Source: Hyphomicrobium sp. (GTDB taxonomy: Bacteria; Pseudomonadota; Alphaproteobacteria; Rhizobiales; Hyphomicrobiaceae). From it: a DNA stretch of 33,408 nucleotides. Where the stretch lies: positions 1-33,408 of the forward strand of contig NZ_JADZBI010000123.1 in the NCBI RefSeq assembly GCF_020852195.1. Direction: 5' to 3'. Position numbers and translations under genes: made by a program. The notes beneath the pieces were generated by a model that had not been told where the DNA came from, ran no database searches, and saw only the letters and a list, made by a program, of their open reading frames with translations. Positions 2,008 through 22,269 of this stretch are shown here, piece by piece (within the stretch, counting starts at the first letter, position 1; every line of letters begins with the position of its first letter).

Positions 2008-2529
2008 CTACAATCCGCGGCGGAGAATCGTTGCGGCAAGCTTTGCGAACGTCGGCCGGACACCCTCACCGGTCAGCGCACTCGTCGATTCCGCAAAGTC
2101 GGGCGAGCCAAAATCGTCAAGCGATATCGATGGCGGAGCTTCCAGCAGATCGACCTTGTTGAGGATTGCCGCGCAGGGCCGGCCTGGCAACTCGTCCTTG
2201 AAGCCAAGCACGAGCTTCTCGAGATAGGGGATCGTTTGTGGCCGTGTCGCATCGGCGACGATGACGGCGGCGGAAGCGCCGCGCAGATAAGTGCTCGCGA
2301 AGATGCTCGTGCCGAAATCGCCATCGGTGTCCCACAAGATGAACGGCATGGTCGCACCGGTTGCGTCGCCTTCGATCTCCACCATCGTGCGATAGACGTC
2401 GACTCCGATCGTCGCCTTGTAATTCCCGTCGAACCTGTCAAACGCCAGGCGGCGCGACAGCGAGGTCTTGCCGACGCCTACGGCGCCCAAGATCATGACT
2501 TTCTTGTCCACCATCTCGTCGCGGCTCAC
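2008..2529 (-). CDS. Ras-like small GTPase with non-canonical G3 motif
   Basis: This 173-residue protein is a single Ras/Rab-type G domain. G1 is GAVGVGKTS (15-23), with K21 and T22 for phosphates and Mg. G2 is T40 in KATIGVDV. G3 is D67-T-D-G-D71 where the canonical form is DTAGQ. G4 is NKVD (124-127) and G5 is S150-A151. There is no lipidation site or extra domain. Position 71, which holds the catalytic glutamine in Ras and Rab, is aspartate, so intrinsic hydrolysis is probably slow or needs a partner. The gene starts with GTG whose last bases form the stop of the upstream gene (GTGA overlap), so translation is coupled to the roadblock/OmpA-like membrane protein. Prokaryotic Rab-like GTPases of this kind include MglA and the Rup groups. 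The cellular role here is unknown. Confidence 0.9.
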   Translation of the reverse strand: MSRDEMVDKKVMILGAVGVGKTSLSRRLAFDRFDGNYKATIGVDVYRTMVEIEGDATGATMPFILWDTDGDFGTSIFASTYLRGASAAVIVADATRPQTIPYLEKLVLGFKDELPGRPCAAILNKVDLLEAPPSISLDDFGSPDFAESTSALTGEGVRPTFAKLAATILRRGL

Positions 2530-4250
2530 TCGTTGATGTAGCCCATCTCGAATGTCACGCGCCGGTTGGAGCTACCAGGCCCCTCCCCTTGCGTAATCTC
2601 CTGCGAGCCGTCGCGCGCTGCCAGGACAAGTCGGGTCTCGTCTACTCCACGCGCGATAAGATCGGCGGCAACCTTCTGAGCGCGAGTCAGTGCGATCTTG
2701 AGGTTTGTCTCGCGCGTGCCGATGTTATCGCCATGGCCGATAAGGCGTATCTTAGGCCCCGGATTGCTTTTCAACAGGGCGGCGATGGCGTCGAGGTCGC
2801 GCTCCGCTTCGGCCGGGGAGCGATACGATGTCCCCTCTTGGAAGAACATCGCGTAGTTGGGCAGGGACAGAGACAGAGTTGTTCGCCCTTCGCGGAGAAC
2901 GCGGGTCGCTTCGTCAATGCTTGCACGCAGGCGCTCGGCTTCCGAGGCCACCGACGCTTCGGCTGATTTGAAGCGTTTTTCGGTATCCTGACCCAGGCTC
3001 GCGACGGCGCTCTCCAGGCGCTTGGAATGAGCGTCGAAGCCTATGGCCGCCTCAAGTGAGGCCGGCCCACCCGTCACGGTGACAACCTGGGCCTCCAGCC
3101 GGTATCCCGGAAGCTCGCGGGCAATCTCAGCCTCCAGGTCATGACGCGCCGCTTCGCTCGGCAAAAGGCCAACGGCCTTGACGGTGTGCGTCCGCGCGTC
3201 CCTGACGATCGTCAGCGCCCCTCCGCCAGCCGCAACCCTTTCGCCGAGAGCAGCGACCGAAGCGTCGAGCCGCTGCTCCGCGCGCCGCGCCTCAAGGGCA
3301 CGCACACCCCAGTAGCCTAGGCCGGCAAGCAGCAGCGTTACAACGATCAGCAGAGGAACGGGGGCTCCGCCCTGACGCGCGGGAACGGCTTGAGCCGCGA
3401 GCGCCGACGCAAGTGACCCAAGAAGCGCGTGCGAATCGACCTCATCGTCCGCCGTGGCACTTTGCTCGAGCATGCTTAGGAAGGCACTGTCGGCGCGCGC
3501 CTCCACCTGCTCGTCGACGGCGCCACGCCCGACGGCTGCGACAATGCGGCGAGCAGACGACCGCAACATCACGACACGGTCGCCGAGATCGAGCGCCCGC
3601 AGGTCGTGACCCTCCCCTTCGAAGGCATCCCGGGAGAAGCTCACGATCGCCGAAAGCAGACCGCCCATCAGCGCCGTCTGGCCATCCTGCCGCTCCTCAC
3701 CCTTACGCGCAGGCCAAGTCGCCAGCAGGGCTCCCGTCGTGCGATCTATCAGGAGAAGGCGCTCGAGCTGAAACCCGATGGCCTCGGACAGAATAATCTC
3801 CGCGAGCGGGCGCCCGGTCACGAGCGATTTTAGCCGCCGCCGCCAGTTGAGCGGGCTGACGGCCGCTTCCAGTTTTGCATTGATGTCGGCAACGAGGCGT
3901 TGGAAGGCGCGAGCCACCGCCGTCGAGACAAGCCTGCCCGTGATCGGATAGAGCGCCTCCACCATCAAGTCTCGCGACTGGACGATCTCCCGCCTTATCC
4001 CGGCGAGCACAAGCGGGGACAGCGCCTCCGCCAGATCGCGATGCTGGTGCGCCTCGGCCGCCCGGAATGCGGCGACGAGCTCCCTCGTCATGGAGTCCCG
4101 GAAACGGTCATCGTCGCCGACGCGCTCGTCGAGCGCAGCCAGTGCACGACGCAACGTCTCGATCGTGGTCCGCTCTTCGGCAAGCAGGATGCGCTTTAGT
4201 TTTTCCAGCTCGGCCTGACGATCAGGCATTACCATTGCGATCACGTCCAT
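2526..4250 (-). CDS. One-TM protein with roadblock-like, BON-like and OmpA-like domains
   Basis: From the ATG at 4250 the protein has 574 residues. An alpha-helical N-terminus covers about 1-140. Residues 148-243 have the pattern of a roadblock/LC7 fold (LLLIDRTTGALLAT, a central helix, then DRVVMLRSSARRIVAAVGRG). One transmembrane helix lies at about 297-316 (PVPLLIVVTLLLAGLGYWGV). A BON-like segment covers about 344-395 (TVKAVGLLPSEAARHDLEAEI), a coiled coil about 405-455, and an OmpA/MotB-like domain 458-570 (IRLIGHGDNIGTRETNLKIALTRAQ, then SSNRRVTFEM). No signal peptide is seen, so the roadblock-like part should be cytosolic and the OmpA-like part periplasmic. Roadblock proteins regulate Ras-like GTPases, and a GTPase gene overlaps this one's stop. 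The start could also be 4235 or 4229. The roadblock and BON assignments are by pattern only. Confidence 0.82.
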   Translation of the reverse strand: MDVIAMVMPDRQAELEKLKRILLAEERTTIETLRRALAALDERVGDDDRFRDSMTRELVAAFRAAEAHQHRDLAEALSPLVLAGIRREIVQSRDLMVEALYPITGRLVSTAVARAFQRLVADINAKLEAAVSPLNWRRRLKSLVTGRPLAEIILSEAIGFQLERLLLIDRTTGALLATWPARKGEERQDGQTALMGGLLSAIVSFSRDAFEGEGHDLRALDLGDRVVMLRSSARRIVAAVGRGAVDEQVEARADSAFLSMLEQSATADDEVDSHALLGSLASALAAQAVPARQGGAPVPLLIVVTLLLAGLGYWGVRALEARRAEQRLDASVAALGERVAAGGGALTIVRDARTHTVKAVGLLPSEAARHDLEAEIARELPGYRLEAQVVTVTGGPASLEAAIGFDAHSKRLESAVASLGQDTEKRFKSAEASVASEAERLRASIDEATRVLREGRTTLSLSLPNYAMFFQEGTSYRSPAEAERDLDAIAALLKSNPGPKIRLIGHGDNIGTRETNLKIALTRAQKVAADLIARGVDETRLVLAARDGSQEITQGEGPGSSNRRVTFEMGYINE

Positions 4251-4584
4251 CCGAGCGTCCCAGGGCTGAGATCTGGTGGCCCAGTGACACGATGGCTTCA
4301 CCGATCTGGCGCAGGCTCTCCTCATGCCTGGAGGACAGCGTTTGCGACATGGCCTCCATCCTCGTCTCCATCGCACTCAATTGCTCGGCGATGCGGCCTT
4401 GCATGCGTTTGATCGAGAGGTCGAGCTCGGCAATACGGCTGTCGTGCTCGCGCTTGGCCTCCCCAAACAGGAGATCGCGAACCTGCTCTATCGTGTTCGC
4501 CGGTGCGTCGGCCGCCACCTCTCGCGCCAAGCGCCTGTTCTCAGCGTCCTGCTCTTGCGGCGCGAACCGGACTGTTTCGGTCAT
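4222..4584 (-). CDS. Short coiled-coil protein, first gene of the GTPase operon
   Basis: This 120-residue soluble protein begins with a low-complexity N-terminus. The motif EQVRDLLFGEAKREHDSRI follows at about residues 33-51, then a long amphipathic helix to about residue 108 with heptad-like hydrophobic spacing (IAELDLSI, ISALGR). The ATG at 4584 is chosen because AAGGA precedes it by 6 bases. An upstream in-frame ATG would add 39 residues of cysteine-rich, atypical sequence. Its stop overlaps the start region of the OmpA-like gene, and that gene overlaps the GTPase gene, so all three are tightly coupled. I recognise no named domain. An adaptor or oligomerisation role for the GTPase and membrane protein is inferred from coiled-coil content and operon position. 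Confidence 0.75.
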   Translation of the reverse strand: MTETVRFAPQEQDAENRRLAREVAADAPANTIEQVRDLLFGEAKREHDSRIAELDLSIKRMQGRIAEQLSAMETRMEAMSQTLSSRHEESLRQIGEAIVSLGHQISALGRSDGRDRNGNA

Positions 4585-5183: not shown

Positions 5184-5196
5184 CTTCTTGTCCAAG

Positions 5197-5829
5197 ATGC
5201 CCGAGATGGCCCACACACAAGGCGCATCAATTGCTCAACCAAGCCCTCCACCACCGGCACGCCCCTTCCCTGCCAGCTATCCGGCCGATGACCGCGTAGT
5301 GCACATGGTGGAGAACTGGGGGCTTGTCGTCAGGCGCTTGAGGATCGTGTACGGGCTGACGCAGGAGCGTGTCGGCATCATATTCGGCGTGTCGCAGCGA
5401 ACCGTCTCACGCTGGGAACGCAGCGAGAACAAGCCCGGCCCGGAGTGCAGGCGGCGTCTGCGCGATCTGGAGCGGGAGCTGTCGGACAGTTCGGCGGGGT
5501 CGGGCAGGCCGTCTCCATCGCCCGGCGAGCCGTCGGGCGCGCAGAATGTCCCCCCGCAGGCCCTATCCGGCAAAGACGACATGCTTCAGGCGGATCTTAT
5601 GCCAATCGCCCTCGCCGATCGCGTCACGACCCTGCTTGCCTGCCTTTCGCGGGAAGACATAGAGCGGCTGCCGGCCCGGGAACGGCGTCAGTTGGCGGAC
5701 CACTGCCGGCAGGTGGCGCAGCTTGCCGAGACTTGCGACGATGTCTTTCTACGGGCGGACATGCCTGCGGACCTGCAGCAAGGTCCGGACGGGCATGCTC
5801 CGGCGACGACAGGACGAGGGAAGGAGTAG
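5197..5829 (+). CDS. XRE-type helix-turn-helix protein
   Basis: The frame encodes about 210 residues. A proline-rich N-terminus of some 35 residues is followed by a helix-turn-helix of Cro/CI/XRE type at about residues 40-95. Its key stretch is RRLRIVYGLTQERVGIIFGVSQRTVSRWERSENKPGP, where LTQERVG and VSQRTVSRWE are the two DNA-binding helices. The C-terminal half has a disordered Ser/Pro/Gly linker and then a helical segment (ADRVTTLLACLSREDIERL). The start is uncertain. ATGs at 5197 and 5206 and a TTG at 5188 are in frame, none has a good ribosome site, and the frame begins right at an inverted repeat. The true start may be the ATG at 5308 just before the HTH. It is convergent with the response regulator gene 17 bases away, and its targets are unknown. 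Confidence 0.7.
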   Translation: MPEMAHTQGASIAQPSPPPPARPFPASYPADDRVVHMVENWGLVVRRLRIVYGLTQERVGIIFGVSQRTVSRWERSENKPGPECRRRLRDLERELSDSSAGSGRPSPSPGEPSGAQNVPPQALSGKDDMLQADLMPIALADRVTTLLACLSREDIERLPARERRQLADHCRQVAQLAETCDDVFLRADMPADLQQGPDGHAPATTGRGKE

Positions 5830-5846: not shown

Positions 5847-6533
5847 CTATCGTGAGCGCGGCCGACGGCGTGTGGCCTTCACGGCGAGTTCCGTCCTGGA
5901 TTGCACGTTGAGCTTCTCCATGATGCGGCTCACGTAGTTCTTGACCGTCCCCTCGGCCAGGAAAACGGTCTCCGCAATGTTCCTGTTGCTCAGTCCTTCA
6001 GCCACGAGCGCGAGAATTCTCTCCTCACGTGCGGTCAACGGCTCGGTTGGTGGGTCATCGCCGGGCTTCCCGGACGCCGGCTGGAGGTTACGCAACCCCT
6101 CCAGCACAGTACGGGCGACCCTCGGCGAAAGACCTGACTCGCCGCGTTTCACGGCACGGATGGTCGCAAGGATCTCCTGCTCGCTGGCATCCTTGAGGAG
6201 GTAGGCTTGAGCGCCGGCTGCGACCGCCTCGAGGACCAGGTCGTCCGTATCGAAGGTCGTGAGCACGATGACCTGCGTATCGGGACGCTCCACGACAATG
6301 CGCCTTATGGCAGCGATCCCGCCGCCGCGCGGCATTTGCAGGTCCATCAGCACGATATCAGGCCGCCAGGCACGGACCATCTCGATCGCCTCGACGCCAT
6401 CCGCCGCCTCGCCGACGACGGTAATGTCTGGCTCCAGCGACAACGTCGCAGCAAACGCGCGTCGAATGACCTGATGGTCCTCGGCGATGACGACACGGAT
6501 CGGATCGGGGGCACTGGTTTCCTGAGACGGCAT
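5847..6533 (-). CDS. NarL/FixJ-family response regulator
   Basis: This 228-residue protein has a receiver domain at about residues 11-127, with acidic pocket E18-D19, phosphorylation site D64 in VLMDLQMP, T92 and K114. A LuxR/GerE DNA-binding domain lies at about 155-220 (LTAREERILALVAEGLSNRNIAE, then VKNYVSRIMEKLNV). The ATG at 6533 is chosen because it lies 10 bases after the kinase stop at 6544. Longer in-frame starts would overlap the kinase. The kinase and regulator form one operon and an evident cognate pair. They lie directly downstream of a PQQ dehydrogenase gene, as with the ExaD/ExaE pair that controls the quinoprotein ethanol dehydrogenase exaA in Pseudomonas. Control of the dehydrogenase genes is therefore likely but inferred. 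Confidence 0.92.
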   Translation of the reverse strand: MPSQETSAPDPIRVVIAEDHQVIRRAFAATLSLEPDITVVGEAADGVEAIEMVRAWRPDIVLMDLQMPRGGGIAAIRRIVVERPDTQVIVLTTFDTDDLVLEAVAAGAQAYLLKDASEQEILATIRAVKRGESGLSPRVARTVLEGLRNLQPASGKPGDDPPTEPLTAREERILALVAEGLSNRNIAETVFLAEGTVKNYVSRIMEKLNVQSRTELAVKATRRRPRSR

Positions 6534-6543
6534 GGCATCTTTA

Positions 6544-7263
6544 TCAGAGGCGCACTTTGATGGTGAGTTGCGTTCCGCGTTCCGGCGCACTCTCGATCAG
6601 CAGGGAGCCGCCGATCATCTCGACCTGCTCGCGCATGCCCGGAATGCCATAGTGGCCGATCACGCCGACATTTGGGTCGAACCCCTTGCCTTCGTCGCGG
6701 ACGATAACCTCGAGGTAGCCGTTCGCCGTGTCGGGCTTGACCTTCGCAATGATGAGGCCGCGGTCCACTCCCGCGTGCCGCTCGATATTATGCACGGCCT
6801 CCTCGACGACCCGGAACACGGTCTCGGCGCGCTCGTCGGCGAGCACGAACGCCCCAGCATCCACGTTCAACTCGATGTTCATGCCCTTGCGCAATCGCAT
6901 CCGCTTGGTCAGCCGTCCCAATGCGGCGCCCAGCCCGTCATCCCTCACGGCCTGGTAGCGCATACGCGTGACCGCGGCGCGCGCCTCGCGCAATCCCCCG
7001 AGCGCCACCTCCTCGGCGCGCTCGAGCTCCTCCGCCAGACGCTCCGGCGCGACCATTGCGAGCTTTCTAACAAGCCGAATCTGGGCCAGCGTAGCTGCCA
7101 TGGAATGGGCCAGCGTGTCGTGCAGATCCCGTGCGATCTGCAGACGCTCCCTCAACACCGCGGCGTGTTGATTTTCCTCTACCACAAAGAGCTCACCTCC
7201 GAAGCCATCGAACTCGGTATCCAGGATTAGCGTCATTATATCGTTCGAGAAAGATGATTTCAT
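6544..7263 (-). CDS. Soluble NarL-partner histidine kinase (HisKA_3 type)
   Basis: From the ATG at 7263 the protein has 239 residues. The dimerisation/phosphoacceptor helix is ERLQIARDLHDTLAHSMAA with phospho-histidine H48. Next come the N box (VEEAVHNIERHAG), the G1 box (VRDEGKGFDP) and the G2 box (GHYGIPGMREQVEMIGG). There is no transmembrane segment and almost no room for a sensor domain, so it is a minimal cytosolic kinase, like ExaD-type kinases beside quinoprotein dehydrogenases. The start is uncertain. GGA stands 6 bases before 7263, an ATG at 7236 is possible, and a TTG at 7365 would overlap the terminator of the upstream gene. The response regulator follows 10 bases downstream. What it senses is not visible and may come through a partner protein. 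Confidence 0.88.
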   Translation of the reverse strand: MKSSFSNDIMTLILDTEFDGFGGELFVVEENQHAAVLRERLQIARDLHDTLAHSMAATLAQIRLVRKLAMVAPERLAEELERAEEVALGGLREARAAVTRMRYQAVRDDGLGAALGRLTKRMRLRKGMNIELNVDAGAFVLADERAETVFRVVEEAVHNIERHAGVDRGLIIAKVKPDTANGYLEVIVRDEGKGFDPNVGVIGHYGIPGMREQVEMIGGSLLIESAPERGTQLTIKVRL

Positions 7264-7349
7264 GCGGTATCCGGAATGGGCCCTGTTCTTCCCGAATCTG
7301 CCGTCATTGCTCTGATAGCATTTGGTCACGCGGTGCGCCGATGACACCC

Positions 7350-7380
7350 AAAAAAGCCCACGCAAGCTGTCACGGGCTTG
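7350..7380 (-). terminator. Rho-independent terminator after the first PQQ dehydrogenase gene
   Basis: On the minus strand AAGCCC pairs with GGGCTT (arms 7374-7379 and 7354-7359), followed directly by a T run. A second, nested pairing GCAAGC/GCTTGC is also possible. It lies 34 bases after the dehydrogenase stop and separates that gene from the kinase gene. Confidence 0.65.
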
Positions 7381-7413: not shown

Positions 7414-9543
7414 CTAGTTGCTCGGCGGTTCCTTGGTCTTCAAAGCCTGTTTGCGCACATAGTGCTGCAACGCTTTCAAAGCATCGTCGGCGAGATGCCT
7501 GAACCTCGGCATTCCATTGAGTGCAAGGGCGCCTTCTTGAACGACCTTCTTGAGCTGCTCCACATCCAGGAAAACCTCTGAAGCTCGCAGGTCCGGAGCG
7601 TAGCCTCCCGAGACCGCGCCCGCGCTATGGCAGAAGGCGCACGACCGCTTGTAAACAGTCTCTCCGTGGTCAGCGAGTTGGTCGTCCGGTGTGAAGCCTG
7701 CGGGCGTGAGCGCCGTCACGAACGAGGGTGGACCGACATCCGGCATGGGTTTGTTGCCATCCAGCGCAAAGGTCAGGAGTTGGCGCACTTGAGCTCCATA
7801 TGCCCAACCATACTGAGCCATGATGCTGCCGCCACCAATGTTGACACCGACACCACCCGGCCCCACCAGCAGGGAGACGTACTGGATGCCGTCAACGGAG
7901 TAGGTGACGGGAGGCGCGCTGATGCCGAGACCGACGTTGACGGACCAAAGCTCCTTGCCGTCACGGGCGTCGTAAGCCAGGAAATGCCCGTCGATGCGGC
8001 CCTGGAACACAAGATTGCCTGCCGTCGTCAAGGTTCCGGCATGCCAGTAGTCCCGTTGGGGGACCTCCCATACCTTCCGTTGTTTCACTGGATCCCAGGC
8101 CAGCAAAGAGCTCGTCCCGACGCCTTTCGGGATATCTCCGCCCAATCCGATATCCGCGGCAACGTCCATATCCCAAGACGGCTTCGTCCAGTCCTTCAGG
8201 TTGACCTTCGTGTCGTCCCAGCCGCTCGGCAGCTCGATCGTGGGAATGTAGACCAAGCCGGTCTCCGGATTGTAGGACATGGCGTGCCACGAGTGCGCGC
8301 CGAACGCACTGGGGTATATCAGGAAGGGCTTCGTCTCGTAGCGTGCCCCTTCAGCTTCGATGGGCCGCCCGGTCTTCATGTCGATCCCGGTCGCCCAGGT
8401 TATCTTCTTGGCGAACGCCTCGGCGGAGATGAGCTTCCCGTCCTTACGGTCGATAACGTAGAAGAAGCCGTTCTTCGGAGCGTGCAGCAACACCTTCCTT
8501 TTGCCCTCGCCCTCCTCCAGTGCAAGATCGGCAAGAACGATATCCATGTTCGAGTTGTAGTCCCAGGTTTCGCCCGGAACGGTTTGATAGTGCCATCTGT
8601 ACTTGCCGGTCGTCGCATCCAGGGCCACGATCGAGCACAGGAAGAGATTGTCGCCACCTCCCGGGCTGCGGACTTTCTGGTTCCATGGAGCGCCGTTGCC
8701 GGTTCCGATCAGGATCTGATCGTAGTCGGGGTCATAGGTCACCCCATTCCATGTTTGGCCGCCGCCCCCGTGCTTCCACCAATCTCCGGTCCACGTCTTG
8801 GCTGCCATCTCCTGCGTTTCGTCCTCGAAGCCGTCGGCAGGATTCCCGGGCACGACATAGAACCGCCACGCCTGCTTGCCGGTCTCGACGTGATAGGCAG
8901 TGACATAACCGCGCCCCGCTCCATTTTCAGATCCGCCGTTACCGATAACGACCAGATCGCGAAAGGCCTTGGGAGCACCGGAGATATATTGCGGCAGCTT
9001 TGGATCGGTTGTCTGGGTGCTCCAGATCGGCGAACCGGATTTCGCATCCAGCGCGATGAGGCGACCGTCGGCGGTCCCGATGATAACCTTGCCCTTGTAG
9101 AAGGCCAGACCGCGGCTGGAATCCCACATGTTTCGCGCGCGATCCGCACCGGCGTGCTTCAAGGTCTCCGGATCGTACTCCCAGACCAGCTTGCCGGTCT
9201 TCACATCCACCGCGCGCGCCTTGCTGTAGCTGCCCGTGAAGTACATCGTGCCATCGACGACCAGCGGCGTGCTCAGCAGCGACTTGTCTCCCGGCAACGC
9301 CAACGACCACGCCAATCCCAACTTCGAGATGCTGTCGGCATTGATTTGATCCAGCGGACTGAACCTCTGCTCGCTGAAGTCCTTTCCATAAGCGAGCCAA
9401 TTCTCTTTCTGATCGGGATCCGCGAGCACGGCATCATCGACGATCGTCTCGGCGATGGCATCGTGCGACGGCCTGCAGATACCAGCCGCTAGAACGAAAA
9501 TTGCCGCTGCGCGCGCGATGCGCCCCAGGTTGTTCACGTTCAT
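7414..9543 (-). CDS. Quinohaemoprotein (PQQ, haem c) alcohol dehydrogenase, copy 1
   Basis: This 709-residue periplasmic enzyme has a signal peptide (about 1-31), an eight-bladed PQQ propeller (about 40-600) and a C-terminal cytochrome c domain with C635-A-F-C-H639 and probable sixth ligand M678. Residues for PQQ and metal are E206 (GNGGSE), N283 (GTGN) and catalytic D328 in TWDYN. Position 330, two after the catalytic Asp, is Asn and not the Asp of lanthanide enzymes, so Ca is the likely metal. The adjacent cysteine pair of classical methanol and ethanol dehydrogenases is absent. The protein has only C23, C303, C635 and C638. Start: GAGGAGG then AAGG before the ATG at 9543. It is nearly colinear with the copy at 13508-15634. 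The substrate is unknown (primary or secondary alcohol, or aldehyde), and electrons would leave through the haem domain. Confidence 0.93.
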   Translation of the reverse strand: MNVNNLGRIARAAAIFVLAAGICRPSHDAIAETIVDDAVLADPDQKENWLAYGKDFSEQRFSPLDQINADSISKLGLAWSLALPGDKSLLSTPLVVDGTMYFTGSYSKARAVDVKTGKLVWEYDPETLKHAGADRARNMWDSSRGLAFYKGKVIIGTADGRLIALDAKSGSPIWSTQTTDPKLPQYISGAPKAFRDLVVIGNGGSENGAGRGYVTAYHVETGKQAWRFYVVPGNPADGFEDETQEMAAKTWTGDWWKHGGGGQTWNGVTYDPDYDQILIGTGNGAPWNQKVRSPGGGDNLFLCSIVALDATTGKYRWHYQTVPGETWDYNSNMDIVLADLALEEGEGKRKVLLHAPKNGFFYVIDRKDGKLISAEAFAKKITWATGIDMKTGRPIEAEGARYETKPFLIYPSAFGAHSWHAMSYNPETGLVYIPTIELPSGWDDTKVNLKDWTKPSWDMDVAADIGLGGDIPKGVGTSSLLAWDPVKQRKVWEVPQRDYWHAGTLTTAGNLVFQGRIDGHFLAYDARDGKELWSVNVGLGISAPPVTYSVDGIQYVSLLVGPGGVGVNIGGGSIMAQYGWAYGAQVRQLLTFALDGNKPMPDVGPPSFVTALTPAGFTPDDQLADHGETVYKRSCAFCHSAGAVSGGYAPDLRASEVFLDVEQLKKVVQEGALALNGMPRFRHLADDALKALQHYVRKQALKTKEPPSN

Positions 9544-13507: not shown

Positions 13508-15634
13508 TTAGTTACTCGGAGGCTGTTTCGTGTCCAGCGCCTGCTTACGCACATAGTGCTGTAGCGCATTCAAGTCCTCGTCGGAGAGGTTCTCGAACCT
13601 CGGCATTCCGTTTCCGGCGAGAGTGCCATCATGGACGACCTTTTTGAGTTGCTCCATATCGAGGAACGTTTCGGAGGCGCGAAGGTCCGGCGCATAGCCT
13701 CCCGAGACAGCGCCGGCGCTGTGGCACCAGACACAAGACGCTTTGTAGACATGCTGTCCGCGGTCGGCGAGCTTCTCGTCCGGCGTGAACCCGGCGGGCG
13801 TCAATGCCTCCACGAACGCGGGCTTGCCGACGTCCGGCATGGGTTTGCTCTCATCCAGCGCGAAGGTCAGGAGCTGGCGAACTTGAGCCCCATATGCCCA
13901 ACCATACTGGGCCATGACGCTGCCACCGCCTATCGAGTACCCCACGCCGCCGGCTCCTACGAGGAGCGAGACGTACTGCGTACCATCGACGGAGTAGGTA
14001 ATTGGAGGGGCACTGATGCCGTGCCCGACGTTGATCGACCAGAGTTTGTTCCCGTCGCGCGCGTCGTAGGCCGCGAACGTTCCATCCACCATGCCCTGGA
14101 ACACGAGGTTGCCGGCCGTCGTCAGCGTGCCTGCATGCCAGAAGTTCGGTTGCTGTACTTCCCACGCCTTCTTCTGATTTACGGGGTCCCAAGCGAGCAG
14201 CGAGCTCGTTCCCGCATCCTTCGGGATGTCGCCCCCGAGACCAATATCAGCAGCAACGTCCAGATCGTAATAGGGCTTCTTCCAATCCTTGAGGTTGACC
14301 GCTGTATCATCCCAGTTGCTCGGAAGCTCTATTTTCGGAATGTACGCGAGCCCCGTGTTCGGATTGTAGGACATCGCGTGCCAGGAATGGGCACCGAAGG
14401 CGCTCGGGTAAATAAGGAATGGCTCGGTTTCGTAGCGGGCCCCCTTGGCTTCGATGGGACGGCCCGTCTTCATGTCGATCCCGGTGGCCCAGGTGATTTT
14501 CGCAATCGGCTCCGCCGACAGAAGCTTTCCGTCCTTGCGGTCGATGACATAGAAGAAGCCGTTCTTCGGGGCGTGCATGAGCACCTTTCTTTTGTCTTCG
14601 CCTTCCTTCAGCGCCAGGTCCGCGAGGACGATGTCCATGGTCGAGTTATAGTCCCAGGTCTCCCCGGGAACCGTCTGATAGTGCCACTTGTATTTTCCTG
14701 TCGTCGCATCAAGGGCGACGATCGAGCAAAGGAAGAGGTTGTCGCCTCCTCCCGGGCTGCGGGCTTTCCGGTTCCATGGAGATCCGTTGCCGGTGCCGAT
14801 CAGAATCTGATCGTACTCGGGATCATAGGTGAAGCCGTTCCAAGTTTGGCCGCCGCCGCCGATCTTCCACCACTCTCCTGTCCAGGTCTTCGCGGCCATC
14901 TCCTGAGCTTCGTCCTCGAAGCCGTCGGCGGGGTTGCCGGGGACGATATAGAACCTCCATGCCTGCTCGCCTGTCTCGACGTGAAAGGCGGTCACGAAGC
15001 CGCGTCCACCTCCCTGCTCGGAGCCGCCATTGCCGACGAGGACCAGATCACGAAACACGGTGGGATGGCCGGTGATGTGAAGTGGCAGCTTCGGATCGAA
15101 TGTCTGTGTGCTCCAGATCGGCGTACCGGTCTTCGCGTCAAGCGCGATGAGACGGCCGTCAACGGTCGCGATGATCACCTTGCCCTTGTAGTAGGCAAGG
15201 CCGCGACTCGAGTCCCACATCGTGCGGGCACGGTCGGGGCCGGCATGCTTCATCGCCTCGGGATCGTATTCCCAGATCAGCTTGCCTGTTTTTGCCTCCA
15301 CCGCTCGTGTCCTGCTGAAGCTTCCGGTGAAATACAGGATGCCATCGACGACCAACGGCGTACCCACCAGCGAGCGGTCGCGAGGCAAGGGCAGGGACCA
15401 CGCCAGCCCGAGCTTGCCGACAGAGTCGACATTGATCTGGTCCAGAGGACTGAACCTGTGTTGGTTGAAGGTGCGTCCATAGCCCAGCCAGTTGTCTGCC
15501 TGCTTGGGATCCGCCAGCGCGGCGTCATCGACGATCGTCTCTGCGGAAGCATCATTCAAGGATGCGGAAATAGCGCCGGCAACAGCCAGTGCCATTGCCG
15601 CTTTGGCAATATGTTTCAATCGATTGATCGGCAT
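13508..15634 (-). CDS. Quinohaemoprotein (PQQ, haem c) alcohol dehydrogenase, copy 2
   Basis: This 708-residue protein is a close paralogue of copy 1. It is colinear apart from one deleted residue near 380, with the same signal-peptide layout (about 1-31). Key residues are E206, N283, catalytic D328 with Asn at 330, and a C-terminal haem site C634-V-W-C-H638 with ligand candidate M677. It too lacks the vicinal disulfide cysteines. The ATG at 15634 is preceded by GAGGAGACGACGAGG, almost identical to the leader of copy 1. Upstream in-frame codons would add 102 residues before the signal peptide and are not credible. The acetoacetyl-CoA synthetase gene follows in the same direction. Two copies in one locus suggest duplication followed by a split in substrate range or regulation; the substrate is unknown. 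Confidence 0.93.
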   Translation of the reverse strand: MPINRLKHIAKAAMALAVAGAISASLNDASAETIVDDAALADPKQADNWLGYGRTFNQHRFSPLDQINVDSVGKLGLAWSLPLPRDRSLVGTPLVVDGILYFTGSFSRTRAVEAKTGKLIWEYDPEAMKHAGPDRARTMWDSSRGLAYYKGKVIIATVDGRLIALDAKTGTPIWSTQTFDPKLPLHITGHPTVFRDLVLVGNGGSEQGGGRGFVTAFHVETGEQAWRFYIVPGNPADGFEDEAQEMAAKTWTGEWWKIGGGGQTWNGFTYDPEYDQILIGTGNGSPWNRKARSPGGGDNLFLCSIVALDATTGKYKWHYQTVPGETWDYNSTMDIVLADLALKEGEDKRKVLMHAPKNGFFYVIDRKDGKLLSAEPIAKITWATGIDMKTGRPIEAKGARYETEPFLIYPSAFGAHSWHAMSYNPNTGLAYIPKIELPSNWDDTAVNLKDWKKPYYDLDVAADIGLGGDIPKDAGTSSLLAWDPVNQKKAWEVQQPNFWHAGTLTTAGNLVFQGMVDGTFAAYDARDGNKLWSINVGHGISAPPITYSVDGTQYVSLLVGAGGVGYSIGGGSVMAQYGWAYGAQVRQLLTFALDESKPMPDVGKPAFVEALTPAGFTPDEKLADRGQHVYKASCVWCHSAGAVSGGYAPDLRASETFLDMEQLKKVVHDGTLAGNGMPRFENLSDEDLNALQHYVRKQALDTKQPPSN

Positions 15635-16221
15635 CCTCGTCGTCTCCTCAAATACCCGGTCTTTTTTCGTTGTTTCCGTTGCGCAGATTGTGCGAGTGAG
15701 GTGCTCAGCCAAATTGTCACCTCGATCGAGATCAGCTCGATGCGGCGCGGCAAGCTCCTTCATTGAGCCTATGCACCCTCGCGTCTTGCCGCATGCCTGT
15801 GCGCGTCGCATCGGTTGTCCACGAGTGCATCGAGCGGGGGGTGCTGGCGGAATGCAGTAGCGAGACGTTCTGCAGCAGGAGCGAGCCACAGAGAGCTGGT
15901 AAGGAGCGAGATCCGAACGCCAACACGGTGCCGCGCACAACGAGGGGAGTCCTAGTTGGACGCCGAGGTGTGATCCGGGGTGCTTGGGCTACGAGGCAGA
16001 CGCGCTAGGCCCTGCGGGCCATGAGCGTTGTTGTTGCATAGAGCGACATTCTCAGAGCGCAGTCATCCATACCAGGCGTGCACGAAACTGTTGCCGAGCT
16101 GTTTCAGCCCAATGGGCATAGCCTTCAGTGCACTCATGTACAGGCTGTACAGGCGGCTGCAGTTGCACAAGTCTGGTCCTCGCTGTTTGTTGCAAGGCGC
16201 AGGCGTAAGGCAGTCCATCTC
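15635..16221. other. Divergent promoter region between copy 2 and the MFS gene
   Basis: No gene is supported here. It must carry the leftward promoter of dehydrogenase copy 2 and the rightward promoter of the transporter. A perfect tandem 9-bp repeat, TGTACAGGC twice at 16137-16154, lies shortly before the chosen transporter start and could be an operator. The dyad GGCCC/GGGCC at 16008-16020 is short. Confidence 0.4.
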
Positions 16222-20107: not shown

Positions 20108-20127
20108 TCCAGCCTTAGGAGATGCCG

Positions 20128-22269
20128 ATGTCTGCCCATACCAGCGAGATGAAAATTGTGCGGGGTGCCTGTCCCCAGGATTGCCCGGACACATGCGCCT
20201 TCCTCTATCACGTCGAGGATGGAAAGCTTGTCGAGGTCACGGGTGACCCAAACCATCCCATGACGCGCGGCGGTCTCTGCGTCAAACTCAAGAATTTCGC
20301 CGAACATCACTACCATCCCGACCGTCTGCTTTATCCGCTACAGCGGGTTGGCCCCAAGGGCTCGGGACAGTTCGAGCGTATAAGCTGGGACAGAGCTCTC
20401 GAGCGCATCAGATCCGAGTGGACCAAGATCATCGATCGATACGGCCCCCAGGCGATCATGCCTCACGCCTACCTCGGCCATCAAGGAACGATCAATGGTC
20501 TGACGTCGGGCGACGCATTCTTCAATCGCCTCGGCTCGACTGTGGCCGAGAAAACGTACTGCGAATCCGGATCGTCAACGGCTTGGCTCATGACGGTGGG
20601 ACCGACCGGCGGCCTCGATGTCGAAAGCCTCGCATACTCGAAGTACATCATCGTGTGGGGCATGAACATGGTGAACACCAATCTTCATGCCTGGCCGTTC
20701 ATCCTTGAAGCGCGCAGCAAGGGCGCCAAGGTCGTTGTTATCGATCCGATCCGGACCAGAACGGCCAAACAAGCCGATTGGCACATCCCGATACGACCGG
20801 GCACGGACGGCGCTCTTGCTCTCGGCATGATGTACGTCATGATGTGCGAGGACGACCTCGTCGATCACGACTACATCGAGAAATACACACTCGGGTTCGA
20901 GGATCTGAAGGCGCGAGCAGCGGAGTTTCCGCCCGAGCGCGTCGAGGCCATCACCGGAATCGCAGCAGAGGACATCCGTAAGCTCGCACGGGAGTACGCG
21001 ACGACGCAGCCTTCTGCCATACGCCAAGGCGTTGCCGTTGAGCGCAGCCCGGGTGGCGGCGATGCCATCCGTCTCATCACCATGCTTCCGGCACTAACGG
21101 GAGCCTGGCGTCATGTGGGCGGCGGCACCATCGAAATGCCGATCTGGGAGTTCCCCTTCAACTTCGATTTCATGTGCCGCCCGGACTGGATCCGACCAGG
21201 AACACGCGTCGTCAACGAACTGGAACTGGGTGCCGCGCTGACTGGCGAACTGAAGCTCGATCCACCGATCAAATCGCTGTTCGTCTACAACTCAAACCCA
21301 GTTTCGCAGGCTCCGAACGCTTCCAAGATCGTTGAAGGTCTGAAGCGCGAGGATCTGTTCATGGTGACAAGCGAGCTGTTCATCACGGATACCGCGAAGT
21401 ATTCGGACATCATCCTGCCGGCAGCGATGCAGGCCGAGGTCTACGACTTGATGGTCACGTGGGGGCATCTCTACGCCTCGCTCAATCAACCCGCAATCCC
21501 GCCGCCGGGAGAGTGCGTCTCCAACGCGGAGCTGTTCCGGCGTCTGGCAAAAGTGATGGGGTTCAATGATCCCCATTTCTCCCTGAGCGACGAGGAAATG
21601 GTGGTCCGGAGCTATAACTGGGATGCGCCGGCGTTCGAAGGCATCACCATCGAGAAGCTCGAGGAGCGCGGTTGGATGCGCCTCAATGTCGGGACGCCTT
21701 CGGAGCGCGTGCCTCACGCCCAAGGCGGATTTAAAACGCCATCCGGCAAGTGCGAGTTCAAGTCGAGCCTGGCCGAGAAGGGCAACTTCGTCGCCGAGGT
21801 CTGGCGTTCCGGCTACGCGGAAATGCAGCCCGGCGGCTACGTCGATCCCGTGCCGAACTTCATTCCGCCCGGCGAGTCTCCCGTAGACAATCCGGCTCAC
21901 GCCCTCCGTTATCCGTTGAACCTCATCTCGCCCAAGCCGCACGCGTTCCTGAATACGCAGTACGGGAACGAGCCCATGCAGCAGAAGCGGCAGGGAGAGC
22001 AGCTGATCCTGATAAACCCCAAGGACGCAAGTGCGCGTGGCATCAATCCCGGAAGCTACGTCAAGGTCTACAACGAGCGTGGCGCGTTTGAGGCCAAGGC
22101 GCAGTTCAGCGACGATGTCATGGCCGGGATGCTGATGACCAACGTCGGACATTGGCCGGGTCACAACCGCACGGGAAGCGCCGTCAATTCTACGACCGCG
22201 CCGCGCCACTGCAATCTCGGGAACGCGGGTGTCTATTCGGACAACCTCGTCGAGATCAGCGCCGTCTAA
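20128..22269 (+). CDS. Molybdopterin oxidoreductase (DMSO reductase superfamily)
   Basis: This 713-residue cytosolic enzyme has an N-terminal [4Fe-4S] motif, C15-x3-C19-x3-C23-x27-C51 (ACPQDCPDTC then GGLCVK). The Mo-bis-MGD domains follow, and a C-terminal molydopterin-dinucleotide-binding domain covers about 590-713 (LNLISPKPHAFLNT, MLMTNVGHWPGH). The Mo ligand should lie near C145 or a nearby Ser in TYCESGSST, but I cannot fix which. There is no twin-arginine leader. AGGAG favours the ATG at 20128 over the one at 20122. Family members oxidise or hydroxylate many small compounds, and no specific substrate is recognisable. A seven-iron ferredoxin and a ferredoxin-NADP reductase follow on the same strand, so electrons probably move between this enzyme and NADP(H). 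It is divergent from the BKACE gene. Confidence 0.9.
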   Translation: MSAHTSEMKIVRGACPQDCPDTCAFLYHVEDGKLVEVTGDPNHPMTRGGLCVKLKNFAEHHYHPDRLLYPLQRVGPKGSGQFERISWDRALERIRSEWTKIIDRYGPQAIMPHAYLGHQGTINGLTSGDAFFNRLGSTVAEKTYCESGSSTAWLMTVGPTGGLDVESLAYSKYIIVWGMNMVNTNLHAWPFILEARSKGAKVVVIDPIRTRTAKQADWHIPIRPGTDGALALGMMYVMMCEDDLVDHDYIEKYTLGFEDLKARAAEFPPERVEAITGIAAEDIRKLAREYATTQPSAIRQGVAVERSPGGGDAIRLITMLPALTGAWRHVGGGTIEMPIWEFPFNFDFMCRPDWIRPGTRVVNELELGAALTGELKLDPPIKSLFVYNSNPVSQAPNASKIVEGLKREDLFMVTSELFITDTAKYSDIILPAAMQAEVYDLMVTWGHLYASLNQPAIPPPGECVSNAELFRRLAKVMGFNDPHFSLSDEEMVVRSYNWDAPAFEGITIEKLEERGWMRLNVGTPSERVPHAQGGFKTPSGKCEFKSSLAEKGNFVAEVWRSGYAEMQPGGYVDPVPNFIPPGESPVDNPAHALRYPLNLISPKPHAFLNTQYGNEPMQQKRQGEQLILINPKDASARGINPGSYVKVYNERGAFEAKAQFSDDVMAGMLMTNVGHWPGHNRTGSAVNSTTAPRHCNLGNAGVYSDNLVEISAV

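Follow-up and report, generated by a model that had tools for sequence, protein, structure and literature searches.

The system encoded near one end of the window (the whole stretch of DNA analysed, an entire contig of 33,408 bases from a 4.24-Mb draft genome) is, as judged from its sequence, a Group 1 Rup system, and the new element reported here is a predicted roadblock/longin fold for the middle domain of the OmpA protein that accompanies the Rup GTPase. No paper naming this domain roadblock or longin was found in the open PMC literature. As the preliminary description had proposed, three overlapping genes are present, and their open reading frames were confirmed on the minus strand: a coiled-coil cytoplasmic protein of 120 aa (4222..4584), a 574-aa membrane protein with an ATG start at 4250 (2526..4250), and a Rup-type small GTPase of 173 aa with a GTG start (2008..2529). 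The start of the GTPase gene and the preceding stop share the bases GTGA, and the 574-aa gene overlaps the coiled-coil gene by up to 29 bases.

The layout itself had already been noted in 2014. The neighbourhood of Group 1 Rup GTPases was then reported to contain a coiled-coil protein, a protein combining a conserved unknown domain, a TM segment and an OmpA domain, and an output gene that is 'typically' a kinase or a c-di-GMP enzyme (GGDEF-EAL) (Wuichet & Søgaard-Andersen 2014, PMC4316618), and the earlier remark that no named system with this arrangement was known is therefore not supported. In the window, the GTPase carries the G3 Asp and no G3 Gln, the latter residue being reported as lost in the group (PMC4316618); the coiled-coil and domain-TM-OmpA genes adjoin it; and the probable neighbouring output is a kinase with a response regulator, which lie upstream with an HTH gene in between and also stand beside the module of the nearest relative. 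Group 1 Rup genes are uncoupled from an MglB (Robl_LC7) gene, and this is likewise so in the genome studied, where no Robl_LC7 match exceeded the cut-off and two sub-cut-off matches (E 0.03 and 0.22) lie on other contigs. One characteristic differs: an invariant Gln has been reported in the N-terminal region of the output proteins (PMC4316618), whereas the window kinase lacks such a domain according to an indirect test with our own profile of 31 kinases. The predicted fold and the nucleotide cyclase outputs described below are further differences from the 2014 account, as far as its accessible text extends. That account mentions a Group 1 member in Mesorhizobium loti, and the M. loti locus in our set (L079, apparently from another strain than the paper's) contains the three genes. 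The accessible text of the same source states that, as of 2014, no Rup member had been studied by experiment and no interaction had been demonstrated (PMC4316618); in the open PMC literature, no paper reporting experiments on a Group 1 Rup system was found.

The association of the three genes is far beyond chance. An alignment-based profile scan confirmed 124 stretches, the best 80 of which were kept as loci and make 81 with the window; a scan of genome contigs with a single sequence confirmed no relative, the alignment query being the one that succeeded. The coiled-coil, TM/OmpA and GTPase genes occur together in 74 of the 81 loci. Where only the GTPase is missing (L080, L093, L115 and L122), the stretch ends inside or within about 90 bases of the second gene; the stretch of L135 ends inside the second gene, and a detected coiled-coil gene is also missing there. 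In L100, which has no GTPase, and in L132, which has no coiled-coil gene, contig ends do not account for the absence. Of 299 genomes sampled from the phylum, our own included, 46 had matches to a profile of the roadblock domain, and 20 further loci were selected from these 46 (six from other families of the order, one from the class and 13 from other classes); they are mostly more distant, and at least L171 and L172, to judge from the lengths of their contigs, repeat contigs of the first set. The order coiled-coil gene, domain protein, GTPase is kept in 19 of these 20, L178 having a partial GTPase match of 113 aa and L189 lacking the GTPase, which agrees with the conserved gene order expected in the preliminary description. 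Distance matrices of the three proteins correlated strongly over the 74 loci (r 0.84-0.87, whereas 300 permutations per pair gave no value above 0.12), but as the permutations also remove ancestry, this correlation indicates shared inheritance and not binding. The nearest relative of all three proteins is found in L057 (Bradyrhizobium sp. LHD-71; 79, 69 and 71%).

The 574-aa protein starts with helices (residues 11-130) and continues with the predicted roadblock/longin-fold domain (~148-267; 3450..3809, minus strand), a TM segment (~298-320), a possible BON-like segment (345-391), a helical linker (396-465) and an OmpA domain (467-569). Two of the parts that had been read from the sequence alone, the OmpA-like domain and the single TM segment, were recovered: Pfam places OmpA at residues 479-562 (1.8e-12, cut-off passed), with one sub-threshold KaiB match within the same part, and in 57 of the 58 aligned homologues the strongest hydrophobic segment lies near residue 300 (283-368 across rows), the corresponding segment of L076 being its second strongest. 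Nothing was recognised by Pfam at E <= 1 in residues 1-478, roadblock and BON included, and the BON domain that had also been suggested is possible from the predicted E-E-H-E order of its segment. The AF2 model of the whole protein, for which 58 near-complete sequences were chosen from the 81 loci, has a mean pLDDT of 82.7 and a pTM of 0.38, so that it does not fix the relative placement of the domains; with this model, Foldseek returned only OmpA-type rows among the 50 matches listed. Counts of Lys and Arg flanking the TM segment favour an N-in orientation in 34 of the 58 homologues, oppose it in 16 and are tied in eight. The window protein is one of the 16 (1 versus 4), and its flanking charges count against a mechanism that needs N-in. 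The OmpA part is present in 15 of the 20 further loci, and the second-protein variants of L174, L178, L179, L180 and L189 have no match to the OmpA profile; anchoring to the wall is thus not universal. In L174 a separate OmpA-type gene lies within the same locus, and in L106 (225-5105) one coiled-coil gene is flanked by two copies of the large-protein gene.

Residues ~148-267 are predicted with good confidence to form a roadblock/longin fold. Modelled alone by AF2 (residues 134-288, with an alignment of 49 of the 58 sequences, nine close relatives being left out), the domain reached a pLDDT of 87.9 and a pTM of 0.79; its predicted order, as in the whole-protein model, is H-E-E-H-E-E-E-H, and that of the whole construct H-H-E-E-H-E-E-E-H-H. 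Comparison of this model with the PDB by Foldseek gave 763 matches at E <= 10, of which 15 were at E <= 0.001 and the best at a modest 2.4e-4. Many of the TM-scores are between 0.4 and 0.6, and the Streptomyces roadblock protein 3kye_B was aligned with a TMt of 0.68 and an rmsd of 2.6 over 111 columns. When the best 50 of the 763 rows were classed by us according to entry title, with chains of the large dynein/axoneme entries taken as roadblock light chains by size, 40 were roadblock-type (15 Ragulator-type, 12 MglB, 10 dynein or axoneme and three 3kye) and 10 longin-type (four AP/COP, three Mon1-Ccz1 and three TRAPP); about two thirds of these 50 belong to complexes that bind small GTPases. 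Sequence comparison gave no corresponding support. A profile search of the PDB with the domain returned no matches at E <= 10; Pfam Robl_LC7 (PF03259) did not match the window protein at E <= 1 and matched two of 49 members, at best with E 0.086; and a profile-profile comparison with Robl_LC7 (28 of 30 fetched members, two having been dropped for stops in frame) scored 12.8, while 60 column shuffles scored up to 19.6 and at least eight of them higher than the domain. Sequence comparison thus did not establish roadblock homology, and what persists of the roadblock-like domain first proposed is a fold claim that rests on prediction. The roadblock and longin folds are described as circular permutations of one another (PMC3521125), and because the domain model has helices at both ends of the sheet, one before it and two after, we do not choose between them.

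The neighbouring protein had been called a Ras-like GTPase, and Pfam agrees (Roc 8.9e-19, Ras 1.2e-16). Its nearest solved relatives are mostly Rab/Ypt among the best 60 of 614 matches, in which MglA is not named, and no second copy was found in its own genome, the next matches having E 0.02 and 0.26. The Ras-like G1-G5 motifs are conserved, with the G3 Asp present. In an alignment of 103 distinct sequences, 101 of which have a residue at each scored site, the P-loop Lys and the G3 Asp (Asp67) are invariant (101/101). Two other residues are absent from all 101 homologues, namely Gln at the Ras-61 position, where the window protein has Asp71, and Gly at the Ras-12 position, both positions being assigned by our own correspondence to Ras numbering. 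Since neither residue is present, it is plausible that GTP hydrolysis by this protein is helped from outside.

A roadblock-like fold beside a Ras-like GTPase resembles the MglA/MglB pair of Myxococcus and Thermus, in which MglB is a separate soluble protein, and the module could be taken for a polarity or motility system of that type. We consider this very improbable. The likeness pointed out in the preliminary description extends to the fold, but no sequence test detected a relation between the domain and MglB, and the genome has no Robl_LC7 protein over the cut-off. MglA is reported to be the exception that lacks the G3 Asp (PMC4316618), in contrast to the Asp67 kept by every Rup homologue scored here; in MglA, moreover, Thr78 replaces a highly conserved residue (PMC3000849). 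The actinobacterial conservons (cvn/mfp) also encode a kinase, a roadblock protein and a small GTPase together, but according to the accessible part of the 2014 paper their GTPase is of the MglA group, their MglB-type protein is separate and a response regulator is lacking (PMC4316618). The eukaryotic Ragulator, TRAPP and Mon1-Ccz1, whose roadblock/longin folds bind Rag or Rab GTPases, are among the Foldseek matches; they are separate complexes without a wall-binding domain, and the likeness is one of fold only. Nor do we know of an OmpA anchor in any conservon.

In the reading that we favour, and hold to be reasonably probable, a protein anchored in the wall regulates the GTPase by means of its roadblock/longin domain, and the two-component pair serves as the output. 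The 574-aa protein would be located in the inner membrane, hold peptidoglycan through its OmpA domain and, on the cytosolic side, bind the neighbouring Rup GTPase through the roadblock/longin-fold domain, which would regulate it as GAP, GEF or both. When the wall or the periplasm changes, the cytosolic part, possibly its dimer, would be altered in conjunction with the coiled-coil protein, and the two together would set the share of the GTPase in the GTP form. The GTPase would then switch the output, which in the window is probably the upstream kinase/response regulator pair and elsewhere may be a GGDEF-EAL protein or a nucleotide cyclase. The binding, the direction of regulation and the signal are what we infer in this scheme. 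On the other hand, the domain could be a Ragulator-like scaffold that recruits the GTPase to the membrane and the wall while leaving its nucleotide state unchanged; the catalytic helper would then be another protein, for example the N-terminal domain of the output, as Wuichet and Søgaard-Andersen speculated. The Ragulator-type and dynein/axoneme matches among the best 50 rows, as we classed them by title, are in line with a scaffold, and so is the invariant Gln reported in the N-terminal region of the outputs (PMC4316618), considering that the GTPase has no Gln of its own. However, an N-terminal domain of this kind is absent from the window kinase, and yet its module keeps the GTPase. We regard the scaffold as unlikely.

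The probable partners of the window module, which the three-gene extent given in the preliminary description had missed, are a histidine kinase of the HisKA_3 type (6544..7365, minus strand; HisKA_3 3.3e-13) and a response regulator of the NarL/LuxR type (5847..6590, minus strand; Response_reg 2e-26, GerE 2.2e-19). No gene on the same strand follows the GTPase before a convergent MarR gene, and the pair lies upstream, past a divergent XRE-like HTH gene (5188-5829) for which a comparison with the gene-like ORFs in the window and the 80 loci gave, at E <= 1e-5, no match but itself. Beside the module of L057, a kinase (82% over 209 aa) and a regulator (82%) are also found, in an orientation differing from that of the window. 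In 30 genomes, our own included, the best match of the regulator elsewhere at E <= 1e-30 has 41% identity, and the other kinase matches at E <= 1e-12 have 26-33% identity and at most 63 bits among the matches listed, whereas regulators and kinases beside other modules reach higher scores, such as 261 and 164 bits (L067, L102). On account of the similar pair beside L057 and the weak matches elsewhere, we infer that the window module probably consists of five genes. This assignment is made with some reservation, as there is one close relative with weaker family similarity beyond it, and the kinase lacks the N-terminal domain of linked kinases. No N-terminal sensor domain was recognised in the kinase ORF, the real start of which is probably near 7180, and it did not match the N-termini profile of 31 module-linked kinases at E <= 10. 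With that profile the same domain, which looks PAS-like, was also recognised in kinases from another 20 of the 80 loci. Hyphomicrobiales loci often have a histidine kinase close to the module, either upstream, following the GTPase or in convergent orientation.

Other types of output accompany the more distant modules. Of ten genes examined beside the further loci, four encode nucleotide cyclases (Pfam Guanylate_cyc), two GGDEF-EAL proteins and one a hybrid kinase; another encodes a response regulator and lies on the opposite strand, and the last two have no Pfam match. The cyclase genes directly follow the Rup GTPase gene (L176:7446-8462, L179:3171-4193, L182:2071-3141 and L185:7882-9084) and presumably encode class III enzymes. 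A nucleotide cyclase as output is new here, this type not being named in the neighbourhood description of 2014 as far as its accessible text goes (PMC4316618).

The outputs also bear on the direction of signalling. The kinase or another enzyme could act first together with the GTPase, whose state would decide whether the OmpA protein holds the wall; inside-out control is known for LapD and for flagellar stators. An OmpA domain placed behind a TM segment and a long helical linker would suit such an outward signal, as would the seemingly PAS-like domain on Hyphomicrobiales output kinases. However, a shared input accounts better for the interchange of the outputs, which may be c-di-GMP enzymes, cyclases or kinases with regulators, and some homologues have no OmpA domain; we judge outward signalling to be improbable.

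The coiled-coil protein has sub-threshold Pfam matches only, several of them to coiled-coil families, and a homologue of it was found by profile in 79 of the 81 loci. This protein (4225-4584) and the N-terminus of the 574-aa protein (4100-4250) each start a helix with an [RK]xLLF-like motif, also in L057-L136, which could be a shared docking motif; a profile-profile comparison of the two scored 24.9 with a probability of only 30%, while the highest of 30 column shuffles reached 18.3.

The 574-aa protein had a match in 31 of the 60 genomes searched (own included, OmpA-only matches counted), and none in the seven other genomes of the same genus. A Cys/Met-enzyme gene and the MarR gene adjoin the module, and they are paired side by side in three of four same-genus stretches (G004, 86/87% identity; G005 and G003, 76/76% and 75/76% for the two other pairs); the fourth stretch (G006) has the Cys/Met-enzyme gene only, and in the remaining three same-genus genomes its best match is at most 38%. 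Owing to this retained pair, at least that end of the contig looks native, and contamination was rejected. In G004 and G005, genes other than the module come after MarR; considered with the absence of the 574-aa protein from the seven genomes, this indicates a site that is variable within the genus and a module that was probably acquired. The G+C content of the module (0.641) is close to that of two neighbouring genes (0.643 and 0.645), most of the contig being about 0.60. Spread by plasmids was rejected on one weak match among 72,556 records (E <= 1e-8), and anti-phage defence because none of the three module proteins had a PADLOC match at E <= 0.01. Elsewhere in the window, two genes for PQQ-dependent dehydrogenases, each with a C-terminal cytochrome domain (7414-9543 and 13508-15940), flank genes for an AMP-binding enzyme and an AraC regulator. 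A molybdopterin oxidoreductase gene 57% identical to the one at 20122-22269 is found in C147 of the genome; the best matches of the window copy in same-genus genomes are similar (55-62%), and it may thus be an acquired paralogue.

The Group 1 Rup GTPases have been described as very similar to Rab/Ran/Ras/Rho (PMC4316618), and the predicted roadblock/longin domain in the adjoining gene provides them with a concrete candidate partner, in a system that lends itself to testing in common soil bacteria, Mesorhizobium among them. We put at about even chances the broader view that the module is a bacterial counterpart of the Rab-longin pairing, which would read the state of the wall and drive interchangeable outputs (two-component, c-di-GMP and nucleotide cyclase). 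If true, a GTPase switch would be wired directly to the cell wall, and this would suggest that the pairing of a Rab-like GTPase with a roadblock/longin fold is older than the eukaryotic membrane system or has arisen outside it.
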